Shown here: positions 37,354 through 64,000 of the stretch, in pieces
Position numbering within the stretch: position 1 is the stretch's first letter
Layout: each line of letters opens with the position of its first letter
Assembly: GCF_964355755.1 (NCBI RefSeq)
Contig: NC_092677.1
Location: forward strand, 4,283,001 to 4,347,000
Length of the DNA stretch: 64,000 bases
Source of the DNA: Antedon mediterranea
Taxonomy: Eukaryota > Echinodermata > Crinoidea > Comatulida > Antedonidae
Direction of reading: 5' to 3'
Position numbers and translations under genes: made by a program
The notes under the pieces: model-generated
Seen by the model: only the letters and a program-made list of their open reading frames with translations
Told to the model about the DNA's origin: nothing
The model's database searches: none

Positions 37354-38555
37354 GCAAGTAATGTCGTCTGCTGAAGATACAGTTACATCAATTGGTGTTT
37401 ACTCCCTCTTCCAAAATTATTGATTTTTCTTTTACTAAATTATGAATTATATTTGTCAGACAAACATTTATTGTGTATTTAGATAAAGTGTAAATAAACA
37501 AACATGTTGTAATTGAAATGCTGTATTTTGTGTATTTAATATAATATAGACTTCTTTCTATGTATAAAATTACCTTTACTCATTTTGTTCTTTCAATATA
37601 AGTTTTAATATAAACTAGAAAGGCACTTCGAGAGTGCAAACCTCGCCTAGCCTAGGCATATGAAAATGTATGTTTCCATACAGCTATGAAACCATCCTTT
37701 AACATTTTATGTATTTATAACCTTTTGACTAATCTTCCTAACAAATATAGAAAGAAACGAACAAACAAATGCACACACGTGATCGACCACATAACCTCTC
37801 GCCATTTTGGGCGAAGGTAACAACAATTACATACGAGAAACATTAATATCAACTGTTAAAAGGGTAATATCAACAGACCGAACACGTTATTTGATTGGCT
37901 TGGTCATGATCAGCGCGCGGAAGCATGATTAACGGTGAATGTGAATCTACCTATGTGATTGGTCACTTGTGCGTTGCGCGTACTTTAATTCTTGCATATC
38001 ATTATACCGTAGTGTCTACAATCATAATCGCAATATACAATACAAGTACTCGTATAGTATTCGTATTTTATGCGTTGTTGCTGTAAAGTATTTAGTAAAA
38101 CCAGAGATAGAGTATAATTACATTTACATATTGTAAGAAAGTGTGATGAACAATGAATATGTCTTCTAATTAATTGGCAAATGTTAGGCTTAGGAAATTC
38201 TCAAATGATTAGAAATATCGATCGGATTTCGAATAAATATCTTCTTAAATAATGTTACAATAATCTGGAAGACGCTCATTTTAAATTTTTTTGCAGATGA
38301 CAAGCATCGTTCTATCGCAGACTAGTAATTTATTATAAAACATAACAGGTTTCCATTTTTATTTTGCCTTTCCGTTTACGAAAAAAGTATCACGACCTAT
38401 GCGGGAAAAACGAATATTGTCTGTGATATCTATATATTTTCGTAACTTTACGAATTGTACGTCCACGCATTATTAAGAGACAGATAGATGCATTGGTTGA
38501 TACAACTAGGGCCAATTAAGAAACGAAATCAACATTGAAATTGGCCTAAGAAAAT
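37354..38555. other. Intergenic between CCDC113 and channel copy A
   Basis: It holds the CCDC113 3' UTR, a dispersed repeat at 37613-37812 (CTAGAAAGGCACTTCGAGAG ... GCCATTTTGGGCGAAGGTAA, related to 2200-2680) and the promoter of channel copy A. Sequence from about 38210 is shared with the upstream flank of copy B (about 47740), so promoter DNA was part of the older duplication as well. Confidence 0.6.
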
Positions 38556-41500
38556 ATGGCTCAAGAAGAGGACTCTGTACTTGGAATAAGTCGAAAGTTC
38601 GGAGAAAACACTTCTTCACATGGTATACCACGGGTAGTAGCGTCAAAATCGTATTTTGGAAAGATCTTCTGGAGTTGTTTGTATGTTGCTTCTCTAGTGG
38701 CGTTCACTTGGCAGGCCTATGTCCTCATCGATACATACTTCAAGTGGGAAGTTTCTATCAAAGTAAGTCGAATTTAAAAGGTGTATAGTTTAACTTCACT
38801 CAAGGGCTATACATACAAAATCGAGGTTTACACTTTTGTACATTTAAAGCTCTGTCTGCACCATCAATTTTTGTGAAAAAAAAATGTGATGTGCCCATGT
38901 ATAGACACGATGATGTCATATCCCTACCATAGTGGACACATCACATTATTTTTGTTGTCTAAGTAGTTTGATAGTGTAGACAGAGCCCAAGGAACTGCAT
39001 TCATACGGCCCTTTTGTGGTCAATTGAATAATGACCCGATATTCCTTTATAATAGGCCTATAGTACCTTCTACATTTAGGCCTAACATCAAATTCATACA
39101 TTTGCAGGGCTTTAACAGTAACGTTTGACTTATTTCCATTTTTGTAGAACTGAAATAGCAATTCTTTATAAAAGATTAAATCAAATTATTAATTACGCAC
39201 ATTTATATTAGAAAAGAAATGAATTTCTTGAAATATTTCTTGTTTTGATTTTATTCGTTCAGTAATTAATTAATGAAACGGATATTTCTTGCTTTGCTTT
39301 TATTTATTTTTGTCAGTACGTCGTTGAAAACTCAGACGCCAGACCCTTGCAATTTCCCGCCGTTACCTTGTGCAATACAAATCAAGTTCGCCGGTCTGTT
39401 TTGGCGTTACGTCATGAGTATGAGATACTATCGTCCATTGAAAACTACACAAATCATTTACAATATTACGGTAAAACATTTTTTATTAGTATTTTGCGTC
39501 AATGTTTTGTTTTGTCAGCTCTGTCTTTATGGGACCCGATGATGTCATATCAGTATCATCACTTTTTTTTACACAAACTAGTTTGGCCCTGTTCCATTCT
39601 ACCATTAAGGACCTAATAATTGTTTAGTCAGAGCGAATACATCTCTATGGTAAGACTTCTTTTTTTCCCAAACCTAACGCCTTATCTTTGCTTCTCTATC
39701 TGAAAAAAACATCGATGTGTGTATGTAGGCCTAAATATGTATTCACATTTGTTTCTGCAGCTCCGTGTAAGGCTGGAGATTTTCATTGCGACAACAACAA
39801 GTGTGTTAAAGATTACAGGGTGTGCAACGGTATTGATGATTGTGGTGATAAGTCAGATGAACAAGACTGTCTACCTGAAAGTAAGTATTGGAATTGTTAT
39901 CCACCCGTAAAATGATGGAACACACGAGTATTATTGATAATTTATTAATAACACCACCGCCATTGTTTTCTTTCTGTAATGGCGCTAGTTACACTCCGTC
40001 ATGCATGAGTAATATGATGGAACGCACGAGTATTATTGATAATTTAGTAATAATTATCACCACCGCCATTGGCTTTCTGTGATGGCACTAGTTACACTCC
40101 GTTATGTGTGAGTAATGAATGACGTAATACATAAGCAGTAAGATTGTATTCGTAGTCCACGTGACTGCGAATTCCGGTAAATGCGTCTTGATTTTAAAAA
40201 GACAGTGTGTCTAAATAAAGTACGACGAATGCATTTAGCTGAGTATCATTGTTTTGTACTTGTCGTCAGAAAAGAGTATTGACCGACATAATATTTCATT
40301 ACTAATCATTATTATATTTATTTTGCATAAATACATTTTTTTTTGTTATAAAAAGTTCCGTGTCGATCTGGGTACAAGCGGTGTCAAATTGGAGGAGAAT
40401 CCGGTTATTGTATTAGCGAAGACAGATGGTGTGATAGAAATGTAGATTGTTACGACGGAGAAGACGAAGTTTGTACAGCGAATGACAGTGGGTAACATTA
40501 AGTTAAAGAACATTAAATTACCCAACTTCCTTAACATAATTACTCCTTAAAATCAGAATAACAATGGAATATATATGAGGAAGAAGTATAAAATCATTGT
40601 ATTTATCATTTCAAAATGAAATTAATAAAAGTAGTGGTTAATGCCACAAAAAAGAGGAAAAAAACATTTCTTACCGTACGAGGTAATAGTCATAGCCCAA
40701 AGTATGAGTTGGACTAGAATTACTATCAAAATTGAAAAGTTCCCATGCGTTGGATTATGCGAATTCATTATCATGTTTTGCCATCTACGATAAGAGTTCA
40801 TGACATTTACGCGAATATATTCGATTAGTTAAAAGCAAACTTTATGCATTTATTTCAGTTAAGTGCAAGGACGATGAATTTTCATGTAAAAGCGGGGTAG
40901 AGGCGTCTTTTGAAACTGAATTTGTTGAAAAATATGGGAATAAGTATTGCATTAATGCCAAGCTAAAATGTGATGGTATTAGACATTGTGCGAATGATGC
41001 TGACGAAGCAAATTGTCCAGGTGATGTAATAAAATGTTGTCTTGGTAATTTGAGTATGTTCAAAATATCGATATTTATTAATAGCGATAGCGCTTTTGTA
41101 TAAATGCACCAAAACCATAGCCATACAATCTAAACGCTCTACTTTACATTTTTGGTAGGCCTATTAATGTATATGCATCCTCAACATAACCCAGGACCTG
41201 CTTGTATAGGAAGAATGGTTCTTGGGACAGGAGGTGTAAGTGGTAGGCCTAGATAAAATGTCACTGCCAATCTAGTACAAATTGATACTCGTTGTTTTTG
41301 TAGCAGGACAATGTAATGAGAATGAATTTACATGTGGAGATATCATTTGCATCCCGAATGATTATAAGTGCGACGGGTTTTGTGACTGCGCAGACTGCAG
41401 GGACGAGTCTTCAGACATAGTTTGTGTATTTACATGAACGAATGGTAAACAAATCCCAAAAGAGGAAACGTGCGATTATAAAAACCAATGCGGTGATAAC

Positions 41501-44500
41501 AGTGATGAAGAAGGATGTACAGTATTCCCAAGTATAGTTATTTTAATTTTTGTCAAAACATTTAATAACTACGGTGGCTGATTTCCGCCAAAGAAAAAAA
41601 TTATTTTATAATAATACGGCATTACGGGGTAATTAGGGCGTTATAATGCCGTAATTAGGGCGTTATAACGCCCTAAATACGGCGTAAATATATATTTTTT
41701 TGGTAGGCCTATTAATGTATATGCATCCTCAACATAACCCAGGACCTGCTTGTATAGGAAGAATGGTTCTTGGGACAGGAGTTGTAAGTGGTAGGCCTAG
41801 ATAAAATGTCAATCTAGTACAAACTGGACTAAATATATAATCTGTTCACACGTACATGCCCCCCTCTCGGCGCATTCACAGATTTTAGAAAGTCACGTGG
41901 TACATTACTGGCCATCTTTGTGTCCAACTATGCCTGTGTAGTGTATGGAGTCGAGTTATGTGCTTAAAAAATGATAAATAATAAAAAATTCACAGGGTTT
42001 TAAATATCCAATTTAATATCAAAACAATCAACTAATACGTATTTTTATAAACTAATTTTTTTCTTTGGCGGAAATCAGCTTTCAAATAAATTACAAAGTA
42101 TAAAATTAAAGTAACGTCTTTTAAGAAGAATTTTTTTCTCTTTACAGATTGCACTGATGAGTTTAAATTCCAATGTGATAATAAGCAGTGTATTGACAAG
42201 ACTGACCTTTGTAACGATAAAGAAGACTGTTATGATTATAGCGATGAACGTTCATGTAGGTTATTTATAATCTGTTAGCCTGTGTGTCCTAGGACTGTGT
42301 TTAACATGTAAAGACAAAAAATGTTTGTTTCAGTGCTATATACTCTCAACATTATGCTTCATTTAATTTTAGGTAATTGCTCAAGAATTCTTTGTAATAA
42401 CAAGAAATGTGTTAACATTTACGCTGATTGTAACGGATTAGACGAATGCGGCGATGGCTCTGATGAAATGTTCTGTAATGAAACAAGTGAGTCCCTAAAC
42501 GGCCTAATCTAAGTCGGCTCTAAACCAACTCTCCCCGAGTAAATTAAACCCCAATCAGTCAACACCGTTCCCAATAAAGTTACTAACAACTATAAGTCTA
42601 TTCGGCAGTTGTGACAACGTGTTGATAAATGATGCAGATAAGATAGATTTAAGTTAATATGCCTATATTTGTTATTTTATGTAATTAGTATTGTTTTTTT
42701 ATATAGTAATTCATTATCAAGCACACGATCCTTCAAATTGGACAGATGACTGGTATTTCCAATACGCAGACAAATTAGACATAGGTTCTGATACATATGT
42801 GCTTGAGACAGCAGTAAAATTATTTAAGGAATACTTCAAAGATTGGGGATTTGAGCGAGTTTCAGGAGAGTTTCCACCAGACTGGATTAGATTCCTTGTC
42901 TTCAGTAGCACGGCAGACTATAGTGACCTACAGAATGTTCTAAAACTTACCCAAGAAGAATTATCGGAACTAGGACATCAGGCTCACCAGATGATTTTAC
43001 AGTGTACTTATGGTGGTACGAAGTGTGATATTGAAAAGTACGTGAAAATGGTTTGACAGTTTTATTAATGATAACACCTACAGTAGTTTTTGTTAATATA
43101 AAACAAATATAAACAAATCCTCAAATTATTTCTGTTTCTGTTTTTTATTTTCCATCTCTCAATTTAGAATATATAACATATCATTTAAATGGAAAGTATG
43201 ACCAAAATAGCAAAGCAACTACTGTAGATGTCTACAAAAAAAGTGGGAATAGACCGTCCTTACCTGCACACGTTTTTTTTTCATTCAGTTAGGTGTCACA
43301 AATGAATTTAAGCTTATTTGATTTCAGGGATTTTCACTTATTTCAACATGACAAATACGGTAACTGCTACACATTTAACAGTCATAAGAAGGAAAATGCG
43401 ACAAAACACGATGTATCACAACCAGGTGCCGAAAAAGGTAAGTTGGTAACCGATTGTAAGAATCCAAACGAAGATTTGAGAAAGAGCCGAAGTTTTTCAA
43501 AATACAAACTAACATAGCATTATATTCGATTCGTAGTTTGAATCTCTTTTCACCCATTTACTTTTTGGTAATAAAGGTTTAAAGCTAACGCTGTACACAG
43601 AACAACATGAATATGTTAGTATCTTCGGACAAGAGAGTGGCATCAAAGTGTCGGTGCATAATCAGTTTGAAACACCGTTTCCAGAAGAAAATGCCATTAC
43701 CGTCTCACCAGGCAGAGCTACGTCATTAGGCATAAACAAGGTAAACGTCAATGCAATCATTTTTCTTATCATTGAGAGATGTAATGCAATTGATGAAGAA
43801 GCTCTTTGACATGATTTACACTTGCTTTGCTTCGTTGGTTGCAAAGTAACTAGTTCCTTATGTCTTAGGTTTTTGAAAATCAATAGTTCCCTATATCACG
43901 ATCGTTATAATCGAAACGTGTATTTTGAAATGTATACAATGTTTTATTTGCAGCACGAACTGATTCGGAAAGGCCAGCCATATGGTAACTGCACAAGTGA
44001 AAATGCAACCGTGAAGAACTTGATTTACAAGGGAGACACAGTGTACACAGCTACTGTAAATAACAATGATGTCATTCATGTTTATTTTACTCCATGAATT
44101 GATTTAAAAATTGAAAGGTTTCCATGTATTGTCTGTTTGTACATTGCTCTGTATTCAAATTATTCCTAATCAGCAGATCCATGTTAAAAATATAAATATT
44201 ATCATCATTATCATATAATTGCTGTAATGGTAGGTCTACGTCATGATCAATTCTTTCCTATTTAGTATCTATTAACCCAATCATTATTTCATTTTTTATC
44301 TTCTATAGGCTTGCCAAAAATCGTGTTTACAACTAAAGTTACTAGAAGTTTGCGACTGTGTGGACACATTGCGTTATAATGGTTCCCAGCGTTGCCAACT
44401 ACTGGATCTTGAACAAGGCTAGTTTAACCAAATGAACATACAACATTAGCAAACATTGAAGCCACTGCTGGCGCGAAAAAAAAATTCTTTCTTCAATTCT

Positions 44501-46196
44501 TTTCGTAATTTTTATTCAGCCAAAATAAATATTTAACATGTAGGCTATACTACAAAAAGTGATTTTACTGATTAAGCGAAAACTCAAGGGACTATAATTC
44601 GCATATGTGGACAATGAAAATACGAATACACATGTACATAGGCTAAACCAGCCTAGCTTTACCTACAAGATCTATTCACTCATTTTAGAAGTACATTATT
44701 TGTACCTTTAAACTGAGTGAATAGATCTTGTGAGTAAAGCTAAACATTTGTATAGACCTATATCATTGCAACATTATTTCTAAAAGCTCAACATATTCCA
44801 TTAGTACGCATCACAACATTAATATAAGGCGTACAACATACTAGATTCAATTTACCCGTAATTGCAGTGAAATATTATATTTCTAAAGCCTATACTTTTT
44901 TTTTACCAATTAGAACGTTGCCGCCAATTTGTGAATTTTCTTCATTCTCAATATTTAATCAAATGTGATTGTCCAGTTGCTTGTCGGTAAGTTAATGTAT
45001 CTTTCTAAAACTGAAACTAAATTCGCTTCTTGACTGGACTGGTAACATGTATGGTGAATTATTGTGTTAAGTTGTAACAAATTAAACAAAACCATTGTAT
45101 TGGTGGAAAGTCATGGACTATTATGTTGTGACGTCTTCTTGTAGCAAAAGAATAATTTCTATTTTTTTTTGTTTTTAGTGAAATTACATATGAAAAGACC
45201 GTATCACAATCACTTTGGCCTTCTGATAGATATGTGGTAAGTTTGCTGGTACGGTGAAGGAACTGAGAACTCGTGCCAAGGATTTAATAATATAAGATTA
45301 TAACATTATTACGAATGGACTATACCTAATAAACTGATTTCGAAATAAGTTACAATAACATTTTTAATCTTCCAGAAAACTTTGCTTGACAGTATTTACG
45401 TCCTTGAGCCAAGATACAGTGAACATTTATACGATCTCGAAACGGCACAGTAAGTAGCATGTTTAAAAAAGAGGCAATGTTTTCGCGCCAATAGAAAGCG
45501 TCAGCTTATACGCATGCGTAGAGACCGATTTTAAAGATGGAAACATGAATACGCATGACGCTTTCGATTCGTGTGAACAAATTCGCCTAATGGAAATCGG
45601 CTTTACACATTATTAACTGTAATGATCAGATTTGCCAGACGCCTTTTAAAATTAGAGATATTCAGTCTTCAATGTATAAATTGTATTTGTATAATAACTA
45701 TTTTTCTATAATTACTTTTGAAATGTGTGTAAACAGAAGAAATCTTGCTCGTCTGAACGTGTATTATGAGGATCTTTCGTACGTCTCCATATCCGAACTC
45801 CCTGCTTATACAGTAAGTATACACAGACACGTCTAGTTAGTATTACTTTCAAGGACCTTTTGGACGTCAATAATATCACAAAAAAATCGATCAAAAATTC
45901 CGAACCTTTAACTTCAATCATCCTATATGCCTATTCTGTGAAAAATCGTGATTGAGTGAGAAAATTGACCCGGTGATAAAATAATCCGATATTTCAACGT
46001 AATTTACTTTATAACCAATTTTTCTGAATTTCAGTGGCAAAGCCTCTTCGGTGACGTAGGAGGAACTCTAGGGCTGTATATTGGTCTTTCATTGCTAACT
46101 GTTGTCGAATTCTGCGAATTCTTCATTGATATTCTTCTTTATTGTTGTAACAAAATGATGAAGAGGAACAAAGTACAAAGTATACCGGGCATGTAG
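38556..46196 (+). CDS. DEG/ENaC channel with seven LDLa modules, copy A (in-frame stop)
   Basis: Eighteen exons close one 827-codon frame: 38556-38762, 39317-39470, 39761-39880, 40356-40487, 40859-41020, 41307-41531, 42148-42255, 42373-42486, 42707-43037, 43328-43437, 43577-43740, 43954-44055, 44309-44417, 44914-44986, 45179-45236, 45376-45449, 45737-45812, 46035-46196. Order: FGENTSSHG gating motif (HG at 22-23), TM1 about 36-58, FPAVTLCN 82-89, seven LDLa modules about 121-407, finger, YGNCYTFN, AITVSPGRATS, YTATACQKSCLQ thumb, WPSDRY, RLNVYYEDL, TM2 with GLS filter 790-792, short basic tail. It should be a trimeric amiloride-type Na+ channel of the plasma membrane. TGA at 41435-41437 (codon 302) replaces an LDLa cysteine, so the copy is truncated unless that symmetrical exon is skipped. 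The exon 13 donor is GC. Confidence 0.9.
38845..38987. mobile_element. MITE, GTCTACACTATC family, in intron 1 of copy A
   Basis: The ends are AAAGCTCTGTCTGCACCATC and GATAGTGTAGACAGAGC, with the internal TGTGATGTGCCCATGTATAG of the family. The same insertion is present in copy C (59772-59915) but not at the matching place in copy B. Confidence 0.75.
41577..42079. mobile_element. TIR element in intron 6 of copy A carrying host intron sequence
   Basis: Inverted ends of about 36 bp (left GCTGATTTCCGCCAAAGAAA, right its complement with one mismatch) bound a 503-bp element. Inside, 41695-41825 is a near copy of channel intron 5 (41149-41275): TTTTTGGTAGGCCTATTAAT onward. A GGGCGTTATAACGCCC palindrome also lies inside. 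Present in copy C, absent from copy B. Confidence 0.85.
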
Positions 46197-48067: not shown

Positions 48068-49113
48068 ATGGCTCAAGAAGAAGAGGAAACTGTACTTGGA
48101 ATAAGTCGAAATTTCGGAGAAAACACTTCTTCACATGGTATACCACGGATAGTAGCGTCAAAATCGTATTTTGGAAAGATCTTCTGGAGTTGTTTGTATG
48201 TTGCTTCTCTAGTGGCGTTCTCTTGGCAGGCCTATGTCCTCATCGATACATACTTCAAGTTTGAAGTTTCTATCAAAGTAAGTTAAGAATGTATCTATCA
48301 TTTAATTTTACAAAGAAAATTTAAGAAAACAAGCTTACTGATGGCTACACAAATCATTCCAATCAAAGAATGTTTATATTTTTATAACTAATTTAGAAAT
48401 CACATCCACACGGCCAATCGTAGACTTTTCGATGTTTGTCTGAAATAAAAGCTCAAGTAGTATACGTATGAAACGCCATATGTGCCAAAATATTAATCTT
48501 TTTACTAATAATTAAGTCAAAAGGCCTCGTTAAAAGTGATTAGGAATTAAATTGTAACTTTTGACTTACAGTATTTCCATTTTTGTTTAAACTAATATAG
48601 CAATTAAATTACCGAAAATTAGGCATAATGAAAATAATAATTATATTATAAAAAATTAATAAAACGAATATTTCTTGCTTTGCTTTTATTTATTTTTGTC
48701 AGTACGTCGTTGAAAACTCAGACGCCAGACCCTTGCAATTTCCCGCCGTTACCTTATGCAATACGAATCAAGTTCGCCGGTCTGTTTTGGCGTTACGTCA
48801 TGAGTATGAGATACTATCGTCCATTGAAGACTACACACATAGTTTGCTATATTATGGTAATAATGTTTTAGTTAATAATGTTGCGTCGTCAGAAGATTTC
48901 CCTGATATGTAGGCATACCGTAGTGCAAGATAAGGGGGTCGTAGTGGGAGAGATGAGAGAATTACAATGAATGCAATATACCGGTTTGTGACCATGCAAA
49001 GCTTATTTCGGCGTTTTTAAAATGATGGTCAAAAAGGTTTTTTATCTGCATTTATCTCTCCTTAAATAATATGGTCTGCACTAATTCTGTCCTCTAATTC
49101 TGCTTCTCTTTGA

Positions 49114-49393
49114 CTCTGTCCATTCTGTAGGCTACCTAGCCCTGTCTCTGTCCATTCTGTAGGCTACCTAGCCCTGTCTCTGTCCATTCTGTAGGCTACC
49201 TAGCCCTGTCTCTGTCCATTCTGTAGGCTACCTAGCCCTGTTTCTGTCCATTCTGTAGGCTACCTAGCCCTGTCTCTGTCCATTCTGTAGGCTACCTAGC
49301 CCTGTCTCTGTCCATTCTGTAGGCTACCTAGCCCTGTCTCTGTCCATTCTGTAGGCTACCTAGCCCTGTCTCTGTCCATTCTGTAGGCTACCT
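49114..49393. repeat. 32-bp minisatellite, about nine copies
   Basis: The unit is CTGTCCATTCTGTAGGCTAC followed by CTAGCCCTGTCT, nearly identical in every copy, in intron 2 of channel copy B. Absent from A and C. Confidence 0.95.
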
Positions 49394-52300
49394 GAATGGT
49401 TCTTTTGCTTTCCTATCGTTCTTTTGACAGTTTATTCGGTATGTACAGATGTATTCAATAGATTTACAGCATTTTATATTATAAATGCTTCCGCAGCTCC
49501 ATGTAAGGATGATGATTTTCATTGCGACAACAATAAGTGTGTTAAAGACTACAGGGTGTGCAATGGTATTGATGATTGTGGTGATAAGTCAGATGAACAA
49601 GACTGTCTACCTGCTAGTAAGTATTGGAATTTTTATCCACCCGTAAAATGATGGAACACACGAGTATTATTGATAATTTAGTAATAATTATCACCACCGC
49701 CATTTTTGTCTTTCTGTAATGGCGCTAGTTACAATCCGTTATGCATGAGTAATTAATGAATGACGTAATGCATAAACGGGCAAAGGTAATTAAGTTTGTA
49801 AAATGATGGAACGCGTGGGTATTAGGCATATATTTAAAATTTAAAGTAATAATTATTACCAATCATTATTATTTTTATTTTGCATAAATATATTTTGGAT
49901 TGTTTTATATACAGTTCCGTGTCGATCTGGGTACAGGAGGTATTAAATGGGAGGAGAATCCGGTTATTGTATTAGCGAAGACAGATGGTGTGACAGAAAT
50001 ATAGATTGTTACGATGGAGAAGACGAAGAATGTTCAGCAGATGACAGTGAGTAGAATCGGACATACCAAAGCTATTTCAGTTTAAGGGAGAAAACAAAAA
50101 TTCAAACAGCAATACATATTATAATAAAAAACTATTTAAATAAGCAGCTGCTTGTCTGTTAAATTGCCATTTATAAGCATGGTTACCTATTGGGGAAAGT
50201 ATTAGGTCTATACGTATTGATATGTACTTACAATTGCGAACTAACCACTGAGAGTTCATTGATGATTCGGCCAGTTAAAAACAGGCTTATAATGTATATA
50301 TTTCAGTTAAGTGCAAGGAGGACGAATGTTCATGTAAAAGCGGGGTAGAGGCGTCTTTTGAAACTGAATTTGTTGAAAAATATGGGACTAAGTATTGCAT
50401 TAGTGCCAAGCTAAAATGTGATGGTATTAGACATTGTGCGAATGATGCTGACGAAGCAAATTGTCAAGGTGATGTAATTTGTGTATGTTCAAAATATCGG
50501 TATTTATTAATAGCGCTTGTATAAATGCACCGAAACCATAACCATACAATATAAACGCTCTACTTTACATTTTTGGTAGGCCTATTGATGTATAATTTAT
50601 GCATCCTCAACATAACCCAGGACCTCCTGGTATAGGAAAAATGGTTCTTGGGACAGGAGCTGTAAGTGGTAGGCCTAGATAAAATGTCACTACCAATCTA
50701 GTACAAATTGATACTCGTTGTTTTTGTAGCAGGACAATGTAATGAGAATGAATTTACATGTGGAAACATCATTTGCATCCCGAATGATTATAAGTGCGAC
50801 GGGTTTTGTGACTGCGCAGACTGCAGGGACGAGTCTTCAGACATAGTTTGTGTATTTACGTGCACGAATGGTAAACATATTCCAAAAGAGGAAACGTGCG
50901 ATTATAAAAACCAATGCGGTGATAACAGCGATGAAGAGGGTTGTACGAATTTTCAAAGTACAGTAATTTTACTTTTATTAAACATTTATTTACAGACTGA
51001 TACAAAATACATTAATGAATGAATCTATTGATTGATTCAAAGAATGACTGGTAGATCTTCATAGATCTACCACTATCACCGACACAATTCTAAGCAATAC
51101 ACACATTATCAATTATCCTATACATTTAATTTTTCCCTATATGTTGATCTTCAATTTCTTTTGAAAGTTTAAGTTAGCCTACTTAGGTAAAATTTGTTTT
51201 CAAATAAATGACATAAGTATAAATTAAAGTAACGGCTTTTAAGAAGTGTTATTTTTTTCTCCTTACAGGTTGCAATGAAGAGTTTGAATTTCAGTGTGAT
51301 AATAAGCAGTGTATTCACAAGGCTTACCTTTGTGACGATAAAATAGACTGTTATGATTATAGCGATGAACGTTCATGTAAGTTAAATTTTTTTTTAAATT
51401 TAGAATTTAAAAATCTTTTTGTGTCTTAAGACTTTGATAAACATGTAATGACAAATGTGTTTGTTTCATTGCTATTTACTCTCAGCATTATGCTTCATTT
51501 GATTTTAGGTAATTGCTCAAGATTTCTTTGTAATAACAAGAAATGTGTTAACATTTACGCTGATTGTAACGGATTAGACGAATGCGGAGATGGCTCTGAT
51601 GAAATGTTCTGTAATGATACAGGTTTGTGTAGTCTTTCTACACCAATTTGGTCAAACTCGGCCCTAAACCAACTCGGCTCTTATCAACTCGGCTCCAGGT
51701 CTCGGTCTCAAATTAACACTTCTCAAGCCAACTCGACCCCTTGTCAACTCGGCCCCCAAGTCAAATTGGCCACAAACTATTCTGTCTTAATGAAGTGATT
51801 GATTAAGATTTTGAAGCAAATAAAATTATTTTCGGCAGTTGTATCAAGGTATTGACAATTCGGCAAGTGATGTTAGATTTAAATTTATATATTTATATTA
51901 TTATATATGTATTAGGCCTATAACTTAAGTAATTTTTTTGTAGGAATTCATTATCAAACACACGATCCTTCAAACTGGACGGATGACTGGTTTTTGCAAT
52001 ACGTAGACAAATTAGACATAGGTTTTGATATAACTACAGCAGTAAAATTGTTTAAACAAAACTTTAAAAATTGGGGATTTGAGCGAGTTTCAGGAGAGTT
52101 TCCACCAGACTGGATTAAGTTCCTTGTCTTCAGTAGCACAGCAGACTATAGCGACCTACAGAATGTTCTAAAACTTACCCAAGAAGAATTATTGGAACTA
52201 GGACATCAGGCTCAGCAGATGATTTTACAGTGTACTTATGGTGGTACGAAATGTGATATTGAAAAGTACGTGATACTTATAAAAACACCCAGTTTTTGAC

Positions 52301-54573
52301 GAAACTGAAATATTTAAAAATAATTATAAAAAATAAATATAAACAAGTTTGTGTTTCAGTTTTATTTTTTTCATTTTTCATTTCTAAAATATTATGGAAA
52401 TGGAAATGATAACCAACAAATTCAAAGCCTGTACACAGTTTATCAAATTTAAATAGAAAACAATTTAAAAGACAATAAAATGTTCAAACATGACATTACA
52501 GTCAAAATCTGAAACAAAAAATGTTGGTGAAACTAGACTGTGGTTTACATATAAATAGATTAATTCCACAAAACACAAAGCAATATATTTGTTGTGACTA
52601 GTAGTGACAGGCCTGATCGCAAATGAATTCCTTATTTGATTTCAGGGATTTTCATCTATTTCAACATGACAAATACGGTAACTGCTATACATTTAATAGT
52701 CATAAGGTGGAAAATGCGATAGTTCACAATGTAACACAACCAGGTGCCGAAAAGGGTTAGTTGATTATCCGATTATAAGAATTGTTTCAAAGGATTTTAA
52801 AAAGATCCAAAGTGTATGTATAATTATAACGAACAAAACATTTAGATTCTATTCGTAATTTGAATATATTACGTGCGTTTATGTTGGGTATTTTGTGATC
52901 GATATCCTTCTTCATTCATTTTATTTAATACCTATTTACTGTTTGATGATAAAGGTTTATGGCTAACGCTGTACACAGAACAACATGAATATGTTAGTAT
53001 CTTCGGACAAGATAGTGGCATCAAAGTGTTGGTGCATAATCAATTTGAAACACCGTTTCCAGAAGAAAATGCCATCACCGTCTCACCAGGCAGAGCTACG
53101 TCATTAGGCATCAAAAGGGTAAACATCATCTTTCTCATCCGTGGCAGAATGTTTTTCTTCATACCATTTGGACAACATAGGACATACTACCTAAAATCGT
53201 GACTGAAAAACATGACTGTCAAGAAAAGAGCGAGGAAGCGAGCCCCAACGTCCCCGCATGCGCACAGTGAATTAAAACGACTTATGTAACCTTAGCTTCT
53301 AGATCTTCTGTAGCTCCTTATAATATTAAGATTGATACACCTTTTTTCAAATTACCTTCGAAGTTCTACAGAAAGTCAAACAATATTTTTGTTTACAGCA
53401 CGAACTGATTCGGAAAGGTCAGCCATATGGTAACTGTATAGGTGAAGATGCAAGAGTGAAGTACTTGATTTACAAGGGAGACACAGTGTACACAGCTACT
53501 GTAAATATAACTATATCATTCATGTTTATTCTAAAGCACACCTTTTGAACGCCATTAAATGATTTTAAAACTGGAAATTAACCATAACACGCGCTGCAGC
53601 ATTTACATCGTTTAGTTGTCTTGCCTGAACTCTACTGTTATAACAGGCCTAAGCAGCATATATCTTTGTTAAAAATAATATACTTATTTTTATAATTGCT
53701 GTAAATGGTAGGCATACGTCACAATTTGTATTAATATGTGTAGTCATCGTTATCACCATCTTCTTCATACAACACCAACATGATTACATCATTACCTTAA
53801 TTTTAATTGATTTTCTATAGGCTTGCCAAAAATCGTGTTTACAACTAAAGTTACTAGAAGTTTGCGACTGTGTGGACACATTGCGTTATAATGGTTCCCG
53901 GCGTTGCCAACTACTGGATCTTGAACAAGGCTAGTTTAAACAATAGTTAACACCTTAAAGCCTGTTTTCCACTAAGAGAGTATTCGTTTGAATCGAAAGT
54001 ACTCATTATTCAGATTCCAAATCACTTTATGCGACGAATTCTATAGTTCCTTGAGTTCATCGAACTGTTTGAACTAGAATCCGCAGTATTTGTAAGATGC
54101 AAATACACATGTGCATTAATAACAATAATACTTCATTCATAAACACTCATTCCGTTAGCCGAGGAGTAAGCACATTTTAGGCCTAATTGCTATTTTTCAA
54201 AATCTCAACATATTCCCTTATTACCTATTAAAACATTGATATACAATATGAATACTGGATCCAAACGCGCTATTTTCCTTTTTATTTGCAGTAAAATATT
54301 ATATTTTTAAGGTCTATACATTTTGTTTTACCAATAGAACGCTGCCGCCAATTTGTGAATTATCTTCATTCTCAATATGTGATGCAATGTGATTGCCCAG
54401 TTGCTTGTCGGTAAGTTAAACTCGCCTCTGGTGATAACACTATGTTGAATTGAATTATAGTTATCACAAATTAAACAATATCATTGTACTGAAACGTATG
54501 GCATATTATGTAGGTGAGGTCCTCTAATAATTCCTATTTTTGTTATTTTTAGTGGAATTACACATGAAAAGAC

Positions 54574-54898
54574 TGAATTGAATTGATATTTATATTTATA
54601 CTGGGTAACCTCTTCAGTCAAAGACTGGTCTCCCAGAGGGCCCAGTTGGTGATCAGTGGCTGTGATGTACTAATACACCGGGGTAACCCCCTACTCGTCT
54701 CGAAAGATGTACTAGGTTCTTTAAAGTGCACACGTGCTAGATGTGTACACTGGACCTAAGGTTTATAGTCCTTATCCGAGAAGACTCGTTCTACCACCAG
54801 AACCATGGAGCGAGTGAGCCTCGAACCCTTGCCGATGTTATGGCTACGTAATTACGGTTCCACTGTCTTAACCGCTCGGCCACTCACTCACTCGAGTG
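54574..54898 (-). mobile_element. SINE inserted in exon 15 of channel copy B
   Basis: The element is inverted: its A/T tail (TGATATTTATATTTATAC) comes first and its tRNA-like head (GGCCGAGCGGTTAAGACAG on the minus strand) last. It is closely similar to the SINE at 24734-25052. It splits the exon between GAAAAGAC and CGTATCACAATC, which are contiguous in copy A. A target duplication is short or absent (GAC at most). Confidence 0.9.
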
Positions 54899-55721
54899 AC
54901 CGTATCACAATCACTTTGGCCTTCTGACAGATATGTGGTAGGTTTGCTGGTGGTTCTTCGTGCGAAGTATTTAATAATACAGTATAGAATAAAACATTAT
55001 TACGAATGGACTATAACTAATGCTGATTACTGGGTTACTATAACATTTTAAATTTTCTAGAAAACTTTGCTTGACAGTATTTACGTCCTTGATCCAAGAT
55101 ACAGTGAACATTTATAAGATCTTGAAACGGCACAGTAAGTAGCATGTTTAAAAAAGAGGCATTGTTATGCAATTGTTGTAATGATTTGATTATCTCTGAA
55201 AAACAAATTTTGTAGCCTTTTTTGTATAATACGGTAACTATTTATTATAATTATTTTTTAAATGTGTGTAAACAAACGAAATCTTGCTCGTCTGAACGTG
55301 TATTATGAGGATCTATCGTACGTCTCCATATCTGAAGTACCAGCTTATACAGTAAGTATACACAGTCAAATCTAGTCGGTCTTTCGACGTTTGCATATAT
55401 CACAAAATGGCAAAATACACAAACATCCATTTCTAGATCTCTGGAAATTGAGATAGTACTTCCATTGATAGTTGGGGTTGGGTGAAGTGTATGGAACATT
55501 TAAAGTTTCTATGTCAACATACAGCCTACGTTGATAGCCTATTGTATTCTGAATTTCAGTGGCAAAGCCTCTTCGGTGACGTAGGAGGAACTCTGGGGCT
55601 GTATATTGGTCTTTCATTGCTAACTGTTGTCGAATTTTGCGAATTCTTCATTGATATTCTTCTTTATTGTTGTAACAAAATGGTGAAGAGGAACAAAGTA
55701 CAGAACTCACCCGAGTTGTAG

Positions 55722-57555
55722 TTTCTTTGATGCAACCGCATGGAAAACACATATTTCCTATTTTCTTGTATATAACTTCAGTCTTATAGACAAGAAGAGT
55801 AGGCTTAACACAGTAGATTTAAATTATTAGATTATGTAATTTATACACACCAACTTTTATTTTAGGGAATTTTACAGCTTACTATGTCGGTCGGTTGGTC
55901 GGTAAACTTGAGCACGCGACTGCAGCCATGCATATGGCCTTGTTCTATGAACTAGCACAATATATTTTCCTCTTTTATAGAACTTTAAAGTAACACTGTA
56001 TACCAAATTAAATTTAATAAATTGCTACATAGTTTATAAGTACTTTCTTTTAGGGAAGGATGCGGTTTATTTATGTGTGTATATTTCATAGTAAAGGAAC
56101 ATGGAGATGACTAAAGTACACAATTTGTTCGGCAATTAAAAATAGCACGTCAATAGAATAGTCAATCTTGTGACGATCAAGTAATAGAAATCATTATTAA
56201 ATACAACACAATATAATCAAAGAAAAGAGTACTTTTGTCCACTTTGAAGTGTATTTAGTACAATGATTTATTGTGCTTGATATCAATTTTAGACTGTATA
56301 CTAGAATTTTTACAGGTCTTTTTTTGCATAGTTAATTTAGATTGTAGAGATTATTATGCCTTATATCAACCTACCTGTTTGTCTTGAACTATTTACAAAT
56401 TGTAAATTAAAAAATCAATCGATGCATGTTTTTTATTTTTTTTTAAATACACAATTCTGCAATACTAAATAACGTTTTAGTTTTATTATTATTTAGCATT
56501 ATTTTTCTTTATTTATTTATACTACAAATTTTATGAATATGTATTGTTATATTCCAAGATGTATTTTAAGTGGAGAGAGGCACTATATGTCAACATATCA
56601 TATTCATGGTCCTCTTCCCACGACGGTTGTTACATAATGCTTTGCATTTCTTTTTATTTTTTCAAAATTGTATTTATATGATTCATATGGACATTTTGTC
56701 TGAAATAAAGTTGAATTGAATAGTAAGCCTATTCTAATTGTTAAGCTTAGTATTCATAATAAAATTTACTTGTGTTTTTAAGTCCTGATGATAACTTATT
56801 ATCTTAATAAATAAATTAGCCTAAATTTTAGAGACCTACCAAAAATCAAACGATGTATGCATTAGCATATAAACTTTCAAAACTTTCTAGTGTGCATGCG
56901 CAGTTTAATACAATATAGTGCCCTCTATTAATTTTCCAGTCAAGGGCTGTTGGCGCGTTCTCTATTATGTCATAATTAATCATGAATTATTCATGATTTC
57001 TGCCCACGTTCGTCCTGGAAAAAAAAATTACGCGGGCTGTTGCAGTGCAGTTAGAAACAGTGTTTTTCAGGACACAGTAAATTGCTTAGTTTTAAAGCAT
57101 TAGGCTAGCAAAGACACGCTATCGTATTGATCTGCTACCGTACCATCAGTACATTGGCCAATTTGTCTTAATCTCACATAAGTGGCGTTGATTAAGTGGG
57201 CCTATCCAATACATAATTATGAATTCCCTAATCAAATTAGCAAACCTCAAAGTCAATAGTATAATAGCATTTTGTATTAATGTACATGTACGCTTGATGT
57301 GTGTTGATCGTCGCAATTTGTTCATTTTGTTGCTACTGCGCTGCTTGATACAACGATTACTAATAAGTTCTCGTAATTGGACGCCCACAACCGTATCCAT
57401 GGAAACGCATCAACTATTTAAAAAAATTGTCGCGTTATGTATTATGGCTTTTAAGAATGCGATATCTTAGAAAGACGACACATCTCAATAATTCTGTTAC
57501 AAACAAAATCTAAATCTACCCGACAATAATGGAAGATTGTTGTTGAAAACACAAG
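55722..57555. other. Intergenic 3' of copy B, mostly unique
   Basis: AT-rich 3' flank of copy B. A short ORF on the plus strand at 56918-57103 and overlapping ones near 57146-57470 have no recognisable family. An X-box-like site lies at 57393-57406. This DNA is outside the A/C segmental duplication. Confidence 0.4.
57393..57406 (+). promoter_or_regulatory. X-box-like RFX site
   Basis: GTATCCATGGAAAC resembles the RFX X-box (GTTRCCATGGYAAC) with both half sites partly kept. It stands 150 bp before the ATG of the small ORF at 57556, a normal distance for cilium-gene X-boxes. Confidence 0.35.
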
Positions 57556-57756
57556 ATGAGTGATAAAGAAACGTTTGAAGAGATAACTTCTAAATTAGGT
57601 ACAAGTAATTGTCTTCTACATCAAAATGTCAATAATTTAAAGATCGATAAAGATCTGAATAAGATAGAAAAACAAAATCCAATAATTGTAACTTTGTACA
57701 TATTAGTTTTTTTCTTCACATTAATACAAAATTGTTTAAAATTCCTTTTGGGTTAA
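57556..57756 (+). CDS. Small putative membrane protein, unknown (66 aa)
   Basis: An open frame of 66 codons begins MSDKETFEEITSKLG, continues with a polar stretch (NNLKIDKDLNKIEKQN) and ends in a hydrophobic segment of about 24 residues (PIIVTLYILVFFFTLIQN...) with a basic residue near the end, like a tail-anchored protein. The A/C duplication starts exactly at codon 15: the remaining codons are also found in CCDC113 intron 6 (36675-36833), where no start codon precedes them. So it is either a real small gene whose 3' part was copied, or a chance fusion at the duplication breakpoint. I do not recognise the family. Confidence 0.35.
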   Translation: MSDKETFEEITSKLGTSNCLLHQNVNNLKIDKDLNKIEKQNPIIVTLYILVFFFTLIQNCLKFLLG

Positions 57757-58174
57757 TCTAATGGACATTCTATAGACCTTATTATTATATTACCTTGTTT
57801 TATCGTTGTTTGTGTGATTTATACTGTAGCTAGTTAGGATTAGTACGTTCAATTAAAATATGTTTACATGATCAAAAAAAAAACTTTCATAATATAGAAT
57901 AATACAGGTTACATTCCAATTTAATCAAGTACAATATATACTATAATTTTAGTAGCATCTCTTTGCATCCTTAAATAGTAGCTATAATAAAATAAAAAGT
58001 CGATATGTAATATAGGATCATAGTAAAAATATGCATTGTCACCAAAAATGTTTATTATTGACAAATGTGTAAAATGAGGACGACTAGTACTATTTTATTG
58101 TTTGAACTTAGAAATGGAAAAAAAAAATCGATCATTTTAATCAAATTTATTTTCGAAATTCTTTTTCATTATAG

Positions 58175-58276
58175 ATGGCCTTGGGAGCTAACCGAAAGAC
58201 ATGGCAACAATTGAAGGCAGCTAGTCACCAACAGCAACAGCAACTATGGAACATGGAACCAATCAAAATGTCCTAA
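58175..58276 (+). pseudogene. Orphan copy of CCDC113 last exon
   Basis: This is a duplicate of exon 7 of CCDC113 (37252-37353), with its acceptor (TTTCATTATAG), stop codon and 3' flank. One residue differs (MALG for MALR at the start). No other CCDC113 exon accompanies it, so it cannot make the protein on its own. Confidence 0.9.
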
Positions 58277-58542
58277 GAAAGTCATGTCGTCTGCTGAAGA
58301 TACAGTTACATCAATTGGTGTTTACTCCCTCTTCCAAAATTATTGATTTTTCTTTTACTGAATTATGAATTATATTTGTCAGACAAACATTTATTGTGTA
58401 TTTAGATGAAAATGTAAATAAACAAACATGTTGTAATTGAAATGCTGTATTTTGTGTATTTAATATAATATAGACTTCTTTCTATGTATAAAATTACTTT
58501 TACTCTTCACATTTTGTTCTTTCAATATAAGTTTTAATATAA

Positions 58543-58750
58543 ACTAGAAAGGCACTTCGATAGTGCAAACCTCGCCTAGCCTAGGCATATGAAAATGTAT
58601 GTTTCCATACAGCTATGAAACCATCCTTTAACATTTTATGTATTTATAACCTTTTGACTAATCTTCCTAACAAATATAGAAAGAAACGAACAAACAAATG
58701 CACACACGTGATCGACCACATAACCTCTCGCCATTTTGGGCGAAGGTAAC
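58543..58750. repeat. Dispersed repeat, duplicated copy
   Basis: Counterpart of 37613-37812 within the segmental duplication, with the same CTAGAAAGGCACTTCGATAG start and GGGCGAAGGTAACAACAATT end. Confidence 0.7.
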
Positions 58751-59482
58751 AACAATTACATTCGAGAAACATTAATATCCACTGTTAAAAGGGTAATATC
58801 AACAGACCGAACACGTTATTTGATTGGCTTGGTCATGATCAGCGCGCGGAAGCATGATTAACGGTGAATGTGAATCTACCTATGTGATTGGTCACTTGTG
58901 CGTTGCGCGTACTTTCTTGCATATCATTATACCGTAGTGTCTACAATCATAATCGCAATATACAATACAAGTACTCGTATAGTATTCGTATTTTATGCGT
59001 TGTTGCTGTAAAGTATTTAGTAAAACCAGAGATAGAGTTATAATTACATTTACATATTGTAAGAAAGTGTGATGAACAATGAATATGTCTTCTAATTAAT
59101 TGGCAAATGTTAGGCTTAGGAAATTCTCAAATGATTAGAAATATCGATCGGATTTCGAATAAATATCTTCTTAAATAATGTTACAATAATCTGGAAGACG
59201 CTCATTTTAAAGTTTTTTTGCAGATAACAAGCATCGTTCTATCGGAGACTAGTAATTTATTATAAAACATAACAGGTTTCCATTTTTATTTTGCCTTTCC
59301 GTTTACGAAAAAAGTATCACGACCTACGCGGGAAAAACGAATATTGTCTGTGATATCTATATATTTTCGTAACTTTACGAATTGTACGTCCACGCATTAT
59401 TAAGAGACGGGTAGATACATTGGTTGACACAGCTAGGGCCAATTAAGAAACGAAATCAACATTGAAATTGGCCTAAGAAAAT

Positions 59483-62400
59483 ATGGCTCAAGAAGAAGAC
59501 TCTGTACTTGGAATAAGTCGAAAGTTCGGAGAAAACACTTCTTCACATGGTATACCACGGATAGTAGCGTCAAAATCGTATTTTGGAAAGATCTTCTGGA
59601 GTTGTTTGTATGTAGCTTCTCTAGGAGCGTTCACTTGGCAGGCCTATGTCCTCATCGATACATACTTCAAGTTTGAAGTTTCTATCAAAGTAAGTCGAAT
59701 TCAAAAGGTGTATAGTTTAACTTCACTCAAGGGCTATACATACAAAATCGAGGTTTACACTTTTGTACATTTAAAGCTCTGTCTGCACCATCAATTTTTG
59801 TGAAAAAAAAATGTGATGTGCCCATGTATAGACACGATGATGTCATATCCCTACCATAGTGGACACATCACATTATTTTTGTTGTCTAAGTAGTTTGATA
59901 GTGTAGACAGAGCCCAAGGAACTGCATTCATACGGCCCTTTTGTGGTCAATTGAATAATGACCCGATATTCCTTTATAATAGGCCTATAGTAACTTCTAC
60001 ATTTAGGCCTAACATCAAATTCATACATTTGCAGGGCTTTAACAGTAACGTTTGACTTATTTCCATTTTTGTAGAACTGAAATAGCAATTCTTTATAAAA
60101 GATTAAATCAAATTATTAATTACGCACATTTATATTAGAAAAGAAATGAATTTCTTGAAGTATTTCTTGTTTTGATTTTATTCGTTCAGTAATTAATTAA
60201 TAAAACGGATATTTCTTGCTTTGCTTTTATTTATTTTTGTCAGTACGTCGTTGAAAACTCAGACGCCAGACCCTTGCAATTTCCCGCCGTTACCTTGTGC
60301 AATACAAATCAAGTTCGCCGGTCTGTTTTGGCGTTACGTCATGAGTATGAGATACTATCGTCCATTGAAAACTACACAAATCGTTTACAATATTACGGTA
60401 AAACATTTTTTATTAGTATTTTGCGTCAATGTTTTGTTTTGTCAGCTCTGTCTTTATGGGACCCGATGATGTCATATCAGTACCATCACACTTTTTTTTA
60501 CACAAACTAGTTTGGCCCTGTTCCATTCTACCATTAAGGACCTAATAATTGTTTAGTCAGAGCGAATACATCTCTATGGTAAGACTTCTTTTTTTTCCCA
60601 AACCTAACGCCTTATCTTTGCTTCTCTATCTGAAAAAAACATCGATGTGTGTATGTAGGCCTAAATATGTATTCACATTTGTTTCTGCAGCTCCGTGTAA
60701 GGCTGGAGATTTTCATTGCGACAACAACAAGTGTGTTAAAGATTACAGGGTGTGCAACGGTATTGATGATTGTGGTGATAAGTCAGATGAACAAGACTGT
60801 CTACCTGAAAGTAAGTATTGGAATTTTTATCCACCCGTAAAATGATGGAACACACGAGTATTATTGATAATTTATTAATAACACCACCGCCATTGTTTTC
60901 TTTCTGTATTGATGCTAGTTACACTCCGTCATGCATGAGTAATATGATGGAACGCACGAGTATTATTGATAATTTAGTAATAATTATCACCACCGCCATT
61001 GGCTTTCTGTGATGGCACTAGTTACACTCCGTTATGTGTGAGTAATGAATGACGTAATACATAAGCAGTAAGATTGTATTCGTAGTCCACGTGACTGTGA
61101 ATTCCGGTAAATGCGTCTTGATTTTAAAAAGACAGTGTGTCTAAATAAAGTACGACGAATGCATTTAGCTGAGTATCATTGTTTTGTACTTGTCGTCATA
61201 ATATTTCATTACTAATCATTATTATATTTATTTTGCATAAATACATTTTTTTTTTGTTATAAAAAGTTCCGTGTCGATCTGGGTACAAGCGGTGTCAAAT
61301 TGGAGGAGAATCCGGTTATTGTATTAGCGAAGACAGATGGTGTGATAGAAATGTAGATTGTTACGACGGAGAAGACGAAGTTTGTACAGCGAATGACAGT
61401 GAGTAACATTAAGTTAAAGAACATTAAATTACCCAACTTCCTTAACATATTACTCCTTAAAATTAGAATAACAATGGAATATATATGAGGAAGAAGTATA
61501 AAATCATTGTATTTATCATTTCAAAATGAAATTAATAAAAGTAGTGGTTAATGCCACAAAAAAGAGGAAAAAAACATTTCTTACCGTACGAGGTAATAGT
61601 CATAGCCCAAAGTATGAGTTGGACTAGAATTACTATCAAAATTGAAAAGTTCCCATGCGCTGGATTATGCGAATTCATTATCATGTTTTGCCATCTACGA
61701 TAAGAGTTCATGACATTTACGCGAATATATTCGATTAGTTAAAAGCAAACTTTATGCATTTATTTCAGTTAAGTGCAAGGACGATGAATTTTCATGTAAA
61801 AGCGGGGTAGAGGCGTCTTTTGAAACTGAATTTGTTGAAAAATATGGGACTAAGTATTGCATTAATGCCAAGCTAAAATGTGATGGTATTAGACATTGTG
61901 CGAATGATGCTGACGAAGCAAATTGTCCAGGTGATGTAATAAAATGTTGTCTTGGTAATTGGAGTATGTTCAAAATATCGATATTTATTAATAGCGATAG
62001 CGCTTTTGTATAAATGCACCAAAACCATAGCCATACAATCTAAACGCTCTACTTTACATTTTTGGTAGGCCTATTAATGTATATGCATCCTCAACATAAC
62101 CCAGGACCTGCTTGTATAGGAAGAATGGTTCTTGGGACAGGCGGTGTAAGTGGTAGGCCTAGATAAAATGTCACTGCCAATCTAGTACAAATTGATACTC
62201 GTTGTTTTTGTAGCAGGACAATGTAATGAGAATGAATTTACATGTGGAGATATCATTTGCATCCCGAATGATTATAAGTGCGACGGGTTTTGTGACTGCG
62301 CAGACTGCAGGGACGAGTCTTCAGACATAGTTTGTGTATTTACGTGCACGAATGGTAAACAAATCCCAAAAGAGGAAACGTGCGATTATAAAAACCAATG

Positions 62401-63963
62401 CGGTGATAACAGCGATGAAGAAGGATGTACAGTATTCCCAAGTATAGTTATTTTAATTTTTGTCAAAACATTTAATAACTACGGTGGCTGATTTCCGCCA
62501 AAGAAAAAAATTATTTTATAATAATACGGCATTACGGGGTAATTAGGGCGTTATAATGCCGTAATTAGGGCGTTATAACGCCCTAAATACGGCGTAAATA
62601 TATATTTTTTTGGTAGGCCTATTAATGTATATGCATCCTCAACATAACACAGGACCTGCTTGTATAGGAAGAATGGTTCTTGGGACAGGAGTTGTAAGTG
62701 GTAGGCCTAGATAAAATGTCAATCTAGTACAAACTGGACTAAATATATAATCTGTTCACACGTACATGCCCCCCTCTCGGCGCATTCACAGATTTTAGAA
62801 AGTCACGTGGTACATTACTGGCCATCTTTGTGTCCAACTATGCCTGTGTAGTGTATGGAGTCGAGTTATGTGCTTAAAAAATGATAAATAATAAAAAATT
62901 CACAGGGTTTTAAATATCCAATTTAATATCAAAACAATCAACTAATACGTATTTTTATAAACTAATTTTTTTCTTTGGCGGAAATCAGCTTTTAAATAAA
63001 TTACAAAGTATAAAATTAAAGTAACGTCTTTTAAGAAGAATTTCTTTCTCTTTACAGATTGCACTGATGAGTTTAAATTCCAATGTGATAATAAGCAGTG
63101 TATTGACAAGACTGACCTTTGTAACGATAAAGAAGACTGTTATGATTATAGCGATGAACGTTCATGTAGGTTATTTATAATCTGTTAGCCTGTGTGTCCT
63201 AGGACTGTGTTTAACATGTAAAGACAAAAAATGTTTGTTTCAGTGCTATATACTCTCAACATTATGCTTCATTTAATTTTAGGTAATTGCTCAAGAATTC
63301 TTTGTAATAACAAGAAATGTGTTAACATTTACGCTGATTGTAACGGATTAGACGAATGCGGCGATGGCTCTGATGAAATGTTCTGTAATGAAACAAGTGA
63401 GTGTACCCTCGTCCCTAAACGGCCTAATCTAAGTCGGCTCTAAACCAACTCTCCCCGAGTAGGCCTAAATTAAACCCCAATCAGTCAACACCGTTCCCAA
63501 TAAAGTTACTAACAACTATAAGTCTATTCGGCAGTTGTGACAACGTGTTGATAAATGATGCAGATAAGATAGATTTAAGTTAATATGCCTATATTTGTTA
63601 TTTTATGTAATTAGTATTGTTTTTTTATATAGGAATTCATTATCAAACACACGATCCTTCAAATTGGACAGATGACTGGTATTTCCAATACGCAGACAAA
63701 TTAGACATAGGTTCTGATACATATGTGCTTGAGACAGCAGTAAAATTATTTAAGGAATACTTCAAAGATTGGGGATTTGAGCGAGTTTCAGGAGAGTTTC
63801 CACCAGACTGGATTAGATTCCTTGTCTTCAGTAGCACGGCAGACTATAGTGACCTACAGAATGTTCTAAAACTTACCCAAGAAGAATTATCGGAACTAGG
63901 ACATCAGGCTCACCAGATGATTTTACAGTGTACTTATGGTGGTACGAAGTGTGATATTGAAAA
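59483..63963 (+). CDS. DEG/ENaC channel with seven LDLa modules, copy C (3' partial)
   Basis: Nine exons are visible before the window ends: 59483-59689, 60244-60397, 60691-60810, 61267-61398, 61769-61930, 62217-62441, 63058-63165, 63283-63396, 63633-63963. They keep one frame from MAQEEDSVLG to the finger-domain exon ending GGTKCDIEK. The product starts like copy A (FGENTSSHGIPRIV, TM1, FPAVTLCNTNQVRRS) and carries the same seven LDLa modules. Where copy A has TGA, copy C has TGC (Cys) at 62345-62347, and the exon 4 donor is the consensus GTGAGT rather than GTGGGT, so C is probably the functional member of the pair. The thumb, WPS motif and TM2 exons should follow beyond 64000. Confidence 0.92.
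59772..59915. mobile_element. MITE, GTCTACACTATC family, in intron 1 of copy C
   Basis: Same insertion as 38845-38987, inherited through the segmental duplication. Confidence 0.75.
62487..62989. mobile_element. TIR element in intron 6 of copy C
   Basis: Same element as 41577-42079, with the GCTGATTTCCGCCAAAGAAA ends and the internal copy of intron 5 sequence. Confidence 0.85.
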
Positions 63964-64000
63964 GTACGTGAAAATGGTTTGACAGTTTTATTAATGATAA

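Follow-up and report, generated by a model that had tools for sequence, protein, structure and literature searches.

A stretch of 64,000 nucleotides from the crinoid Antedon mediterranea (positions 4283001–4347000 of its contig in a 354-Mb, 18-contig assembly), called the window in the following, contains the beginning of a tandem array of genes for DEG/ENaC channel subunits, in which LDL receptor class A (LDLa) modules, seven in ten of the eleven copies, are set into the finger of the extracellular domain. These genes are a real, old and apparently undescribed variant of a known channel family; the proteins as such exist in databases as automatic predictions. Tentatively, with slightly more doubt than confidence, the seven modules are regarded as a binding or tether arm which would be coupled to gating through the finger.

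An 18-exon, 826-residue DEG/ENaC subunit with seven LDLa modules in six exons (residues about 121–407) had been proposed in the original prediction, and this layout was reproduced from the DNA: the model of copy 1 comprises 18 exons and 826 codons, from the ATG at 38556 to a stop codon ending at 46196. The subunit beginning at 38556 had also been called complete, which did not hold; codon 302, within LDLa 5, is an in-frame TGA (41435–41437), and therefore copy 1 is not a complete open subunit. Of the copies starting in the window, the open one is copy 3. Three tandem copies start within the window, at 38556, 48068 and 59483, with the following features (exon models):

38556..46196, + strand: copy 1, 18 exons with 826 codons, one of them an in-frame TGA
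38556–38762, 39317–39470, + strand: copy 1 exons 1–2, with the His-Gly motif, transmembrane helix 1 (TM1), palm strand 1 (FPAVTLCN) and the start of the finger
39761–39880, 40356–40487, 40859–41020, 41307–41531 (two modules), 42148–42255, 42373–42486, + strand: copy 1 exons 3–8, seven LDLa modules
42707–43037, 43328–43437, 43577–43740, 43954–44055, 44309–44417 (GC donor), 44914–44986, 45179–45236, 45376–45449, 45737–45812, 46035–46196, + strand: copy 1 exons 9–18, remaining channel to the second transmembrane helix (TM2)
48068..55721, + strand: copy 2, pseudogene
49497–49616, 49915–50046, 50307–50468, 50733–50957, 51269–51376, 51509–51622, + strand: copy 2 LDLa exons 3–8
59483–59689, 60244–60397, 60691–60810, 61267–61398, 61769–61930, 62217–62441, 63058–63165, 63283–63396, 63633–63963, + strand: copy 3 exons 1–9

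For domain analysis, residues 1–517 of copy 3 and 518–826 of copy 1 were joined. Pfam recognised in this joined model ASC (6.9e-89; 299.4 bits, cut-off 23.6) and seven Ldl_recept_a stretches (1.8e-40), and no other domain. The two membrane helices and the large ectodomain of the DEG/ENaC fold are present, as are the hallmarks of the family, i.e., His-Gly at residue 22, FPAVTxCN at 82, a GxS filter at 790 and 14 conserved ectodomain cysteines; for the DEG/ENaC ectodomain, seven conserved disulfides are given in the available part of PMC6197857. The LDLa insert begins about 31 residues past FPAVTLCN and lies inside the finger, not between palm strand 1 and the finger as had been thought. Judging from the sequence, the helices ahead of the insert are taken as alpha1, which would place it between alpha1 and the next finger helices. 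It occupies the slot that in ENaC holds the protease-sensitive GRIP domain, and this alpha1–alpha2 slot is the site of protease control of ENaC (PMC6197857, available part).

All internal splice sites of copy 1 are AG/GT but for one GC donor after exon 13 (44418); copies 3, 5, 6, 8 and 10 share this GC donor, and copy 11 has GT in its place. The phase is 1 both at the end of exon 2 and at the start of exon 9, all six LDLa exons are of phase 1-1, and their omission preserves the frame. Phase-1-1 exons within a phase-1 intron would be the expected look of shuffled cassettes. The phases match at every junction in copies 3, 8 and 10 with no site moved. Support for LDLa and channel exons forming a single gene, as originally claimed, came from two predicted proteins. 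P0001, the NCBI model of copy 3 ("degenerin unc-8-like"), is a 99% match, is identical to all of copy 3 from residue 335 onwards, and joins LDLa 6–7 to ten channel exons, i.e., it contains 11 of the 17 junctions of the exon model; the remainder of the claim, TM1 and LDLa 1–5, is not covered by it, and its start represents either a wrong start or an alternative transcript. An intronic ATG before LDLa 6 is found at 62673 in copy 3 and at 41763 in copy 1. The listed contig of P0001 (28,587,047) and the contig of the window (28,582,174) are not quite equal in length, and the assembly analysed may therefore be a different version. P0002 of Anneissia japonica (839 residues) aligns over its full length, with TM1, all seven LDLa modules and TM2 included.

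The tandem family noticed originally is represented by three copies in the window and, when the next 116 kb of the assembly are included, by eleven, which extend over about 132 kb from 38556 to about 170993 (continued window coordinates), all on the + strand. Between exons 2 and 9, hits to the six LDLa exons were obtained in every copy; by a family LDLa profile, ten copies have seven modules and copy 7 has six. Six copies (3, 5, 6, 8, 10 and 11) are apparently intact and five (1, 2, 4, 7 and 9) apparently damaged. The reading frame is open in copies 3, 8 and 10 without moving any splice site; for copy 3, this amounts to 517 codons up to the window edge and to all 826 in the assembly, with the gene end at 67116 (continued window coordinates). 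Copies 5, 6 and 11 are open once splice sites are shifted slightly by rule, the end of exon 10 of copy 11 not being placeable on a GT. In copy 7 the frame slips within LDLa 2, exon 16 is missing from copy 9, and copy 4 is degenerate. Copy 2 is a pseudogene in this assembly, with TAA codons in LDLa 2 (49944–49946) and in exon 16, exon 17 lacking an AG acceptor, and exon 15 split by a 316-bp repeat:

54578..54893, − strand: 316-bp repeat in copy 2 exon 15, 95% identical, inverted, to 24736–25053

This inverted pair resembles a mobile element. A tRNA-type origin of the repeat was suspected by eye only and was rejected, as ARAGORN (bacterial code) gave no tRNA in the window. The copy 2 intron between exons 2 and 3 also contains a short tandem repeat (49114–49424), which appears as a recurring peptide in translations.

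The first and third copies are very similar over a long stretch, due either to recent duplication or to a false duplicate of the assembly:

57598..64000, + strand: stretch holding copy 3, 98.4% identical to 36675–43074 (copy 1)

False duplication could account for this pair; it does not account for copies 2 and 11, nor for copies 6 and 10, which differ. The array genes are under purifying selection. Between copies 1 and 2 the ratio of nonsynonymous to synonymous divergence (dN/dS) was 0.32 both in the LDLa exons and in the channel exons; among copies 3, 5, 6, 8 and 10 it was 0.21–0.78 for LDLa and 0.17–0.34 for ASC, all pairs with copy 11 being saturated. Copies 3 and 6 are 85% identical in LDLa versus 98% in ASC, with dS of 0.220 versus 0.072; this contrast suggests that the 3' exons have undergone gene conversion. 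Positive selection on the LDLa modules is not claimed, since the dN/dS values and the raised dS fit gene conversion.

A combined search for ASC and LDLa in ambulacrarian proteins had been suggested together with the original prediction. Three protein searches, covering the best 120 of 235, 46 of 46 and the best 120 of 437 matches, yielded at least 66 distinct clusters with both domains by precomputed Pfam (36 + 17 + 13), which span nine echinoderm and hemichordate species: Antedon, Anneissia, Patiria, Asterias rubens, Acanthaster, Amphiura, Saccoglossus, Ptychodera and Glandiceps. The design is not private to Antedon, but common among proteins predicted for crinoids, starfish, a brittle star and acorn worms; among the same best 120 of 235, 46 of 46 and best 120 of 437 matches listed, no protein with ASC and LDLa came from sea urchins, sea cucumbers, protostomes or vertebrates. 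The 66 clusters and the window model were then examined for LDLa between FPxVTxCN and a late-finger landmark. LDLa was in this slot in 46 of the 46 models having both landmarks, including the window model with seven; two of them carry LDLa outside the slot as well (P0144, a model of 1940 residues in which LDLa occurs in a further block, and P0165, in which it lies at the landmark itself). The count leaves out 21 models, 17 without the N-terminal landmark and 4 without the finger landmark (one without both). A joint motif, FPxVTxCNTN...YYxPCxxGDF, recurs with variations, P0003 and P0017 being among the departures. Further Pfam domains in the ASC and LDLa proteins are CUB, TSP1, SRCR, HYR, F5/8, PAN, FN3 and kringle, listed per protein and not implying a position in the slot. 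In P0036 from amphioxus (Branchiostoma floridae), which has no LDLa, F5/8 (818–936) and kringle (975–1052) domains and a weak Xlink match were obtained, the former two between the strand-1 motif (125) and the finger landmark (1100); the finger slot may serve as a socket for modules throughout the deuterostomes. Sea urchin relatives (P0136, P0138 and other ASC proteins without LDLa) show in the slot a Gly/Ser-rich stretch with RKKR, recalling ENaC furin sites.

In a channel-core tree of 73 rows, comprising only relatives returned by the protein searches, the LDLa label takes four changes, with the unlabelled P0034, P0045 and P0142 inside the LDLa group. With five doubtful rows removed, 52 LDLa rows stand on one side of a branch and 16 others on the other, with an SH-aLRT (Shimodaira–Hasegawa-like approximate likelihood ratio test) value of 86, which is not decisive. 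A single origin of the LDLa-bearing channels is likely from these comparisons. Copies 1–10 are 50–59% identical to P0002, copy 4 being lowest, and copy 11 shows 50.9% identity with P0002 and 59.5% with P0003 over its 3' part. Since their contigs are listed with equal length (1,102,855), P0002 and P0003 are probably on one contig, and the P0002-like and P0003-like types may be an old linked pair.

The original prediction knew of no characterised channel with this architecture, and this is in agreement with our literature searches aimed at the design, which yielded no description of an LDLa-bearing DEG/ENaC; coverage was partial, most subscription journals and all preprints lying outside it. In two papers on DEG/ENaC phylogeny (PMC10507113, PMC9949801) and a family review (PMC10148893), the main text contains no word starting with "LDL". 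Papers naming both ENaC and LDLa appeared to deal with proteases or unrelated matters, as judged from titles and the beginnings of abstracts. Among the closest known systems is ENaC with its GRIP domain, which has the same channel core and fold and an additional block at the same place of the finger, although the block consists of protease-cleaved strands there and of an LDLa array here. P0002 scored higher with the NCBIfam ENaC model than with the degenerin model (300.4 versus 233.4 bits); membership in either family was rejected, as the cut-offs were 428 bits for ENaC (TIGR00859; P0001 250.6) and 598.45 bits for nematode deg-1 (TIGR00867; P0001 219.5). A pattern search found no RxKR/RxRR furin-type site in the alpha1–alpha2 slot or elsewhere in the joined model, and furin activation of the Antedon gene was discarded on this ground. 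FaNaC and ASIC are without LDLa, and their solved chains have 404–525 residues compared to 839 for P0002. The LDL receptor family shares the tandem LDLa modules, but the Antedon array is set in a channel with two transmembrane helices; membership was rejected, since Pfam found no EGF or beta-propeller beside LDLa in the joined model. Predicted ambulacrarian proteins with ASC and LDLa (named degenerin-like, LRP2-like or uncharacterized) have the same slot and joint motif and differ in their module sets, all being automatic predictions; amphioxus P0036 has slot and joint motif in common with them, but F5/8 and kringle instead of LDLa.

According to the tentatively preferred reading, the LDLa array would be an arm holding a partner in the matrix or on a cell surface; occupancy of the arm, or tension on it, would shift finger and thumb, and this shift would regulate opening of the Na channel, assumed from the DEG/ENaC family to be a trimer (tether gating); such a trimer would carry up to 21 LDLa modules, as originally predicted. 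Exon shuffling probably brought the phase-1-ended cassettes into a phase-1 intron before the split of echinoderms and hemichordates, and other lineages would have received other binding modules. It is possible, and is proposed rather cautiously, that the alpha1–alpha2 slot has been a socket for shuffled modules (LDLa, CUB, TSP1, SRCR, kringle, F5/8) since early ambulacrarian, perhaps deuterostome, history, such that one common Na-channel core is gated by a variety of matrix or ligand cues, and that one type grew in Antedon to at least eleven tandem copies. Matrix tethering of DEG/ENaC channels is a standing model (PMC10148893, available part), and tether sites were proposed in the finger region which holds the protease control of ENaC and the peptide site of FaNaC (PMC6197857, PMC11026163, available parts). 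The genes resemble a domain-insertion experiment of nature at the slot of ENaC protease control; if the arm gates the channel, they would allow a direct test of whether a DEG/ENaC pore is opened by binding at the finger or by pulling on it, and the question of matrix-tether gating could be addressed with a candidate tether that is part of the subunit itself. If true, echinoderms and hemichordates would possess a large, unstudied set of candidate sensory channels.

Several points speak against the tether arm. Five of the eleven copies appear damaged; the start of P0001, an ATG of the intron ahead of LDLa 6, leaves it without TM1 and LDLa 1–5; and the dN/dS between copies 1 and 2 is 0.87 in exons 1–2. 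Asp is present at both central Ca-ligand positions, as generally known for the module, only in modules 2 and 4 of the joined model, the others having Asn (1 and 6), His (3), Gln (5) or Asn and Glu (7), and therefore Ca binding is doubtful for several modules. LDLa modules also serve soluble ligands, a tether being just one possible use.

This last point leads to a first alternative, which is doubtful: secreted proteins, peptides or lipoproteins might be captured by the arm, which would make the channel a ligand-gated receptor instead of a tethered force sensor. LDLa modules bind ligands in relatives of the LDL receptor, and the greater divergence of the LDLa part between copies 3 and 6 might fit different ligands, but dS is raised there as well, so that 3' gene conversion accounts for the contrast without a change of ligand. 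Also in its favour, a peptide binding at the finger gates FaNaC (PMC11026163, available part). Unlikely is a role of the array in Ca or proton sensing, assembly, trafficking or endocytosis instead of gating by a partner. The Antedon and Anneissia modules pair one to one, with the same two central ligand letters in six of seven, and LDLa folds depend on Ca; however, several modules lack a canonical ligand residue, and relatives also possess CUB, TSP1, SRCR, F5/8, PAN or kringle domains, which are binding and not Ca-sensing modules. It is even less probable that the array is a decaying relic without important use in Antedon, as might be concluded from the stop codon, frame slip, missing exons or lost splice sites of copies 1, 2, 4, 7 and 9; against it are the open copies 3, 5, 6, 8 and 10 (also 11, with one exon end unplaced), the LDLa dN/dS given above and the module pairing with Anneissia. 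That exons 3–8 are a separate LDLa gene can practically be dismissed, despite the start of the NCBI model of copy 3, by the agreement of phases at all junctions of copies 3, 8 and 10, the same exon order in all eleven copies, the link of LDLa 6–7 with the channel in P0001, the coverage of P0002, and the position of LDLa in the slot in all 46 models with both landmarks.

Outside the array, the genome contains other ASC matches (90 in all), several of them clustered, e.g., on C5 at about 26.05–26.48 and 29.99–30.02 Mb, and also on C2, C6, C9 and C11; the ASC family search was also positive in one of 14 control genomes. The window also contains open frames of rhodopsin-type receptors, all on the − strand:

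3551–4603, − strand: rhodopsin-type receptor frame (7tm_1, 1.6e-30)
9155–10249, − strand: rhodopsin-type receptor frame (7tm_1, 1.4e-25)
32093–32947, − strand: rhodopsin-type receptor frame (7tm_1, 9.9e-18)

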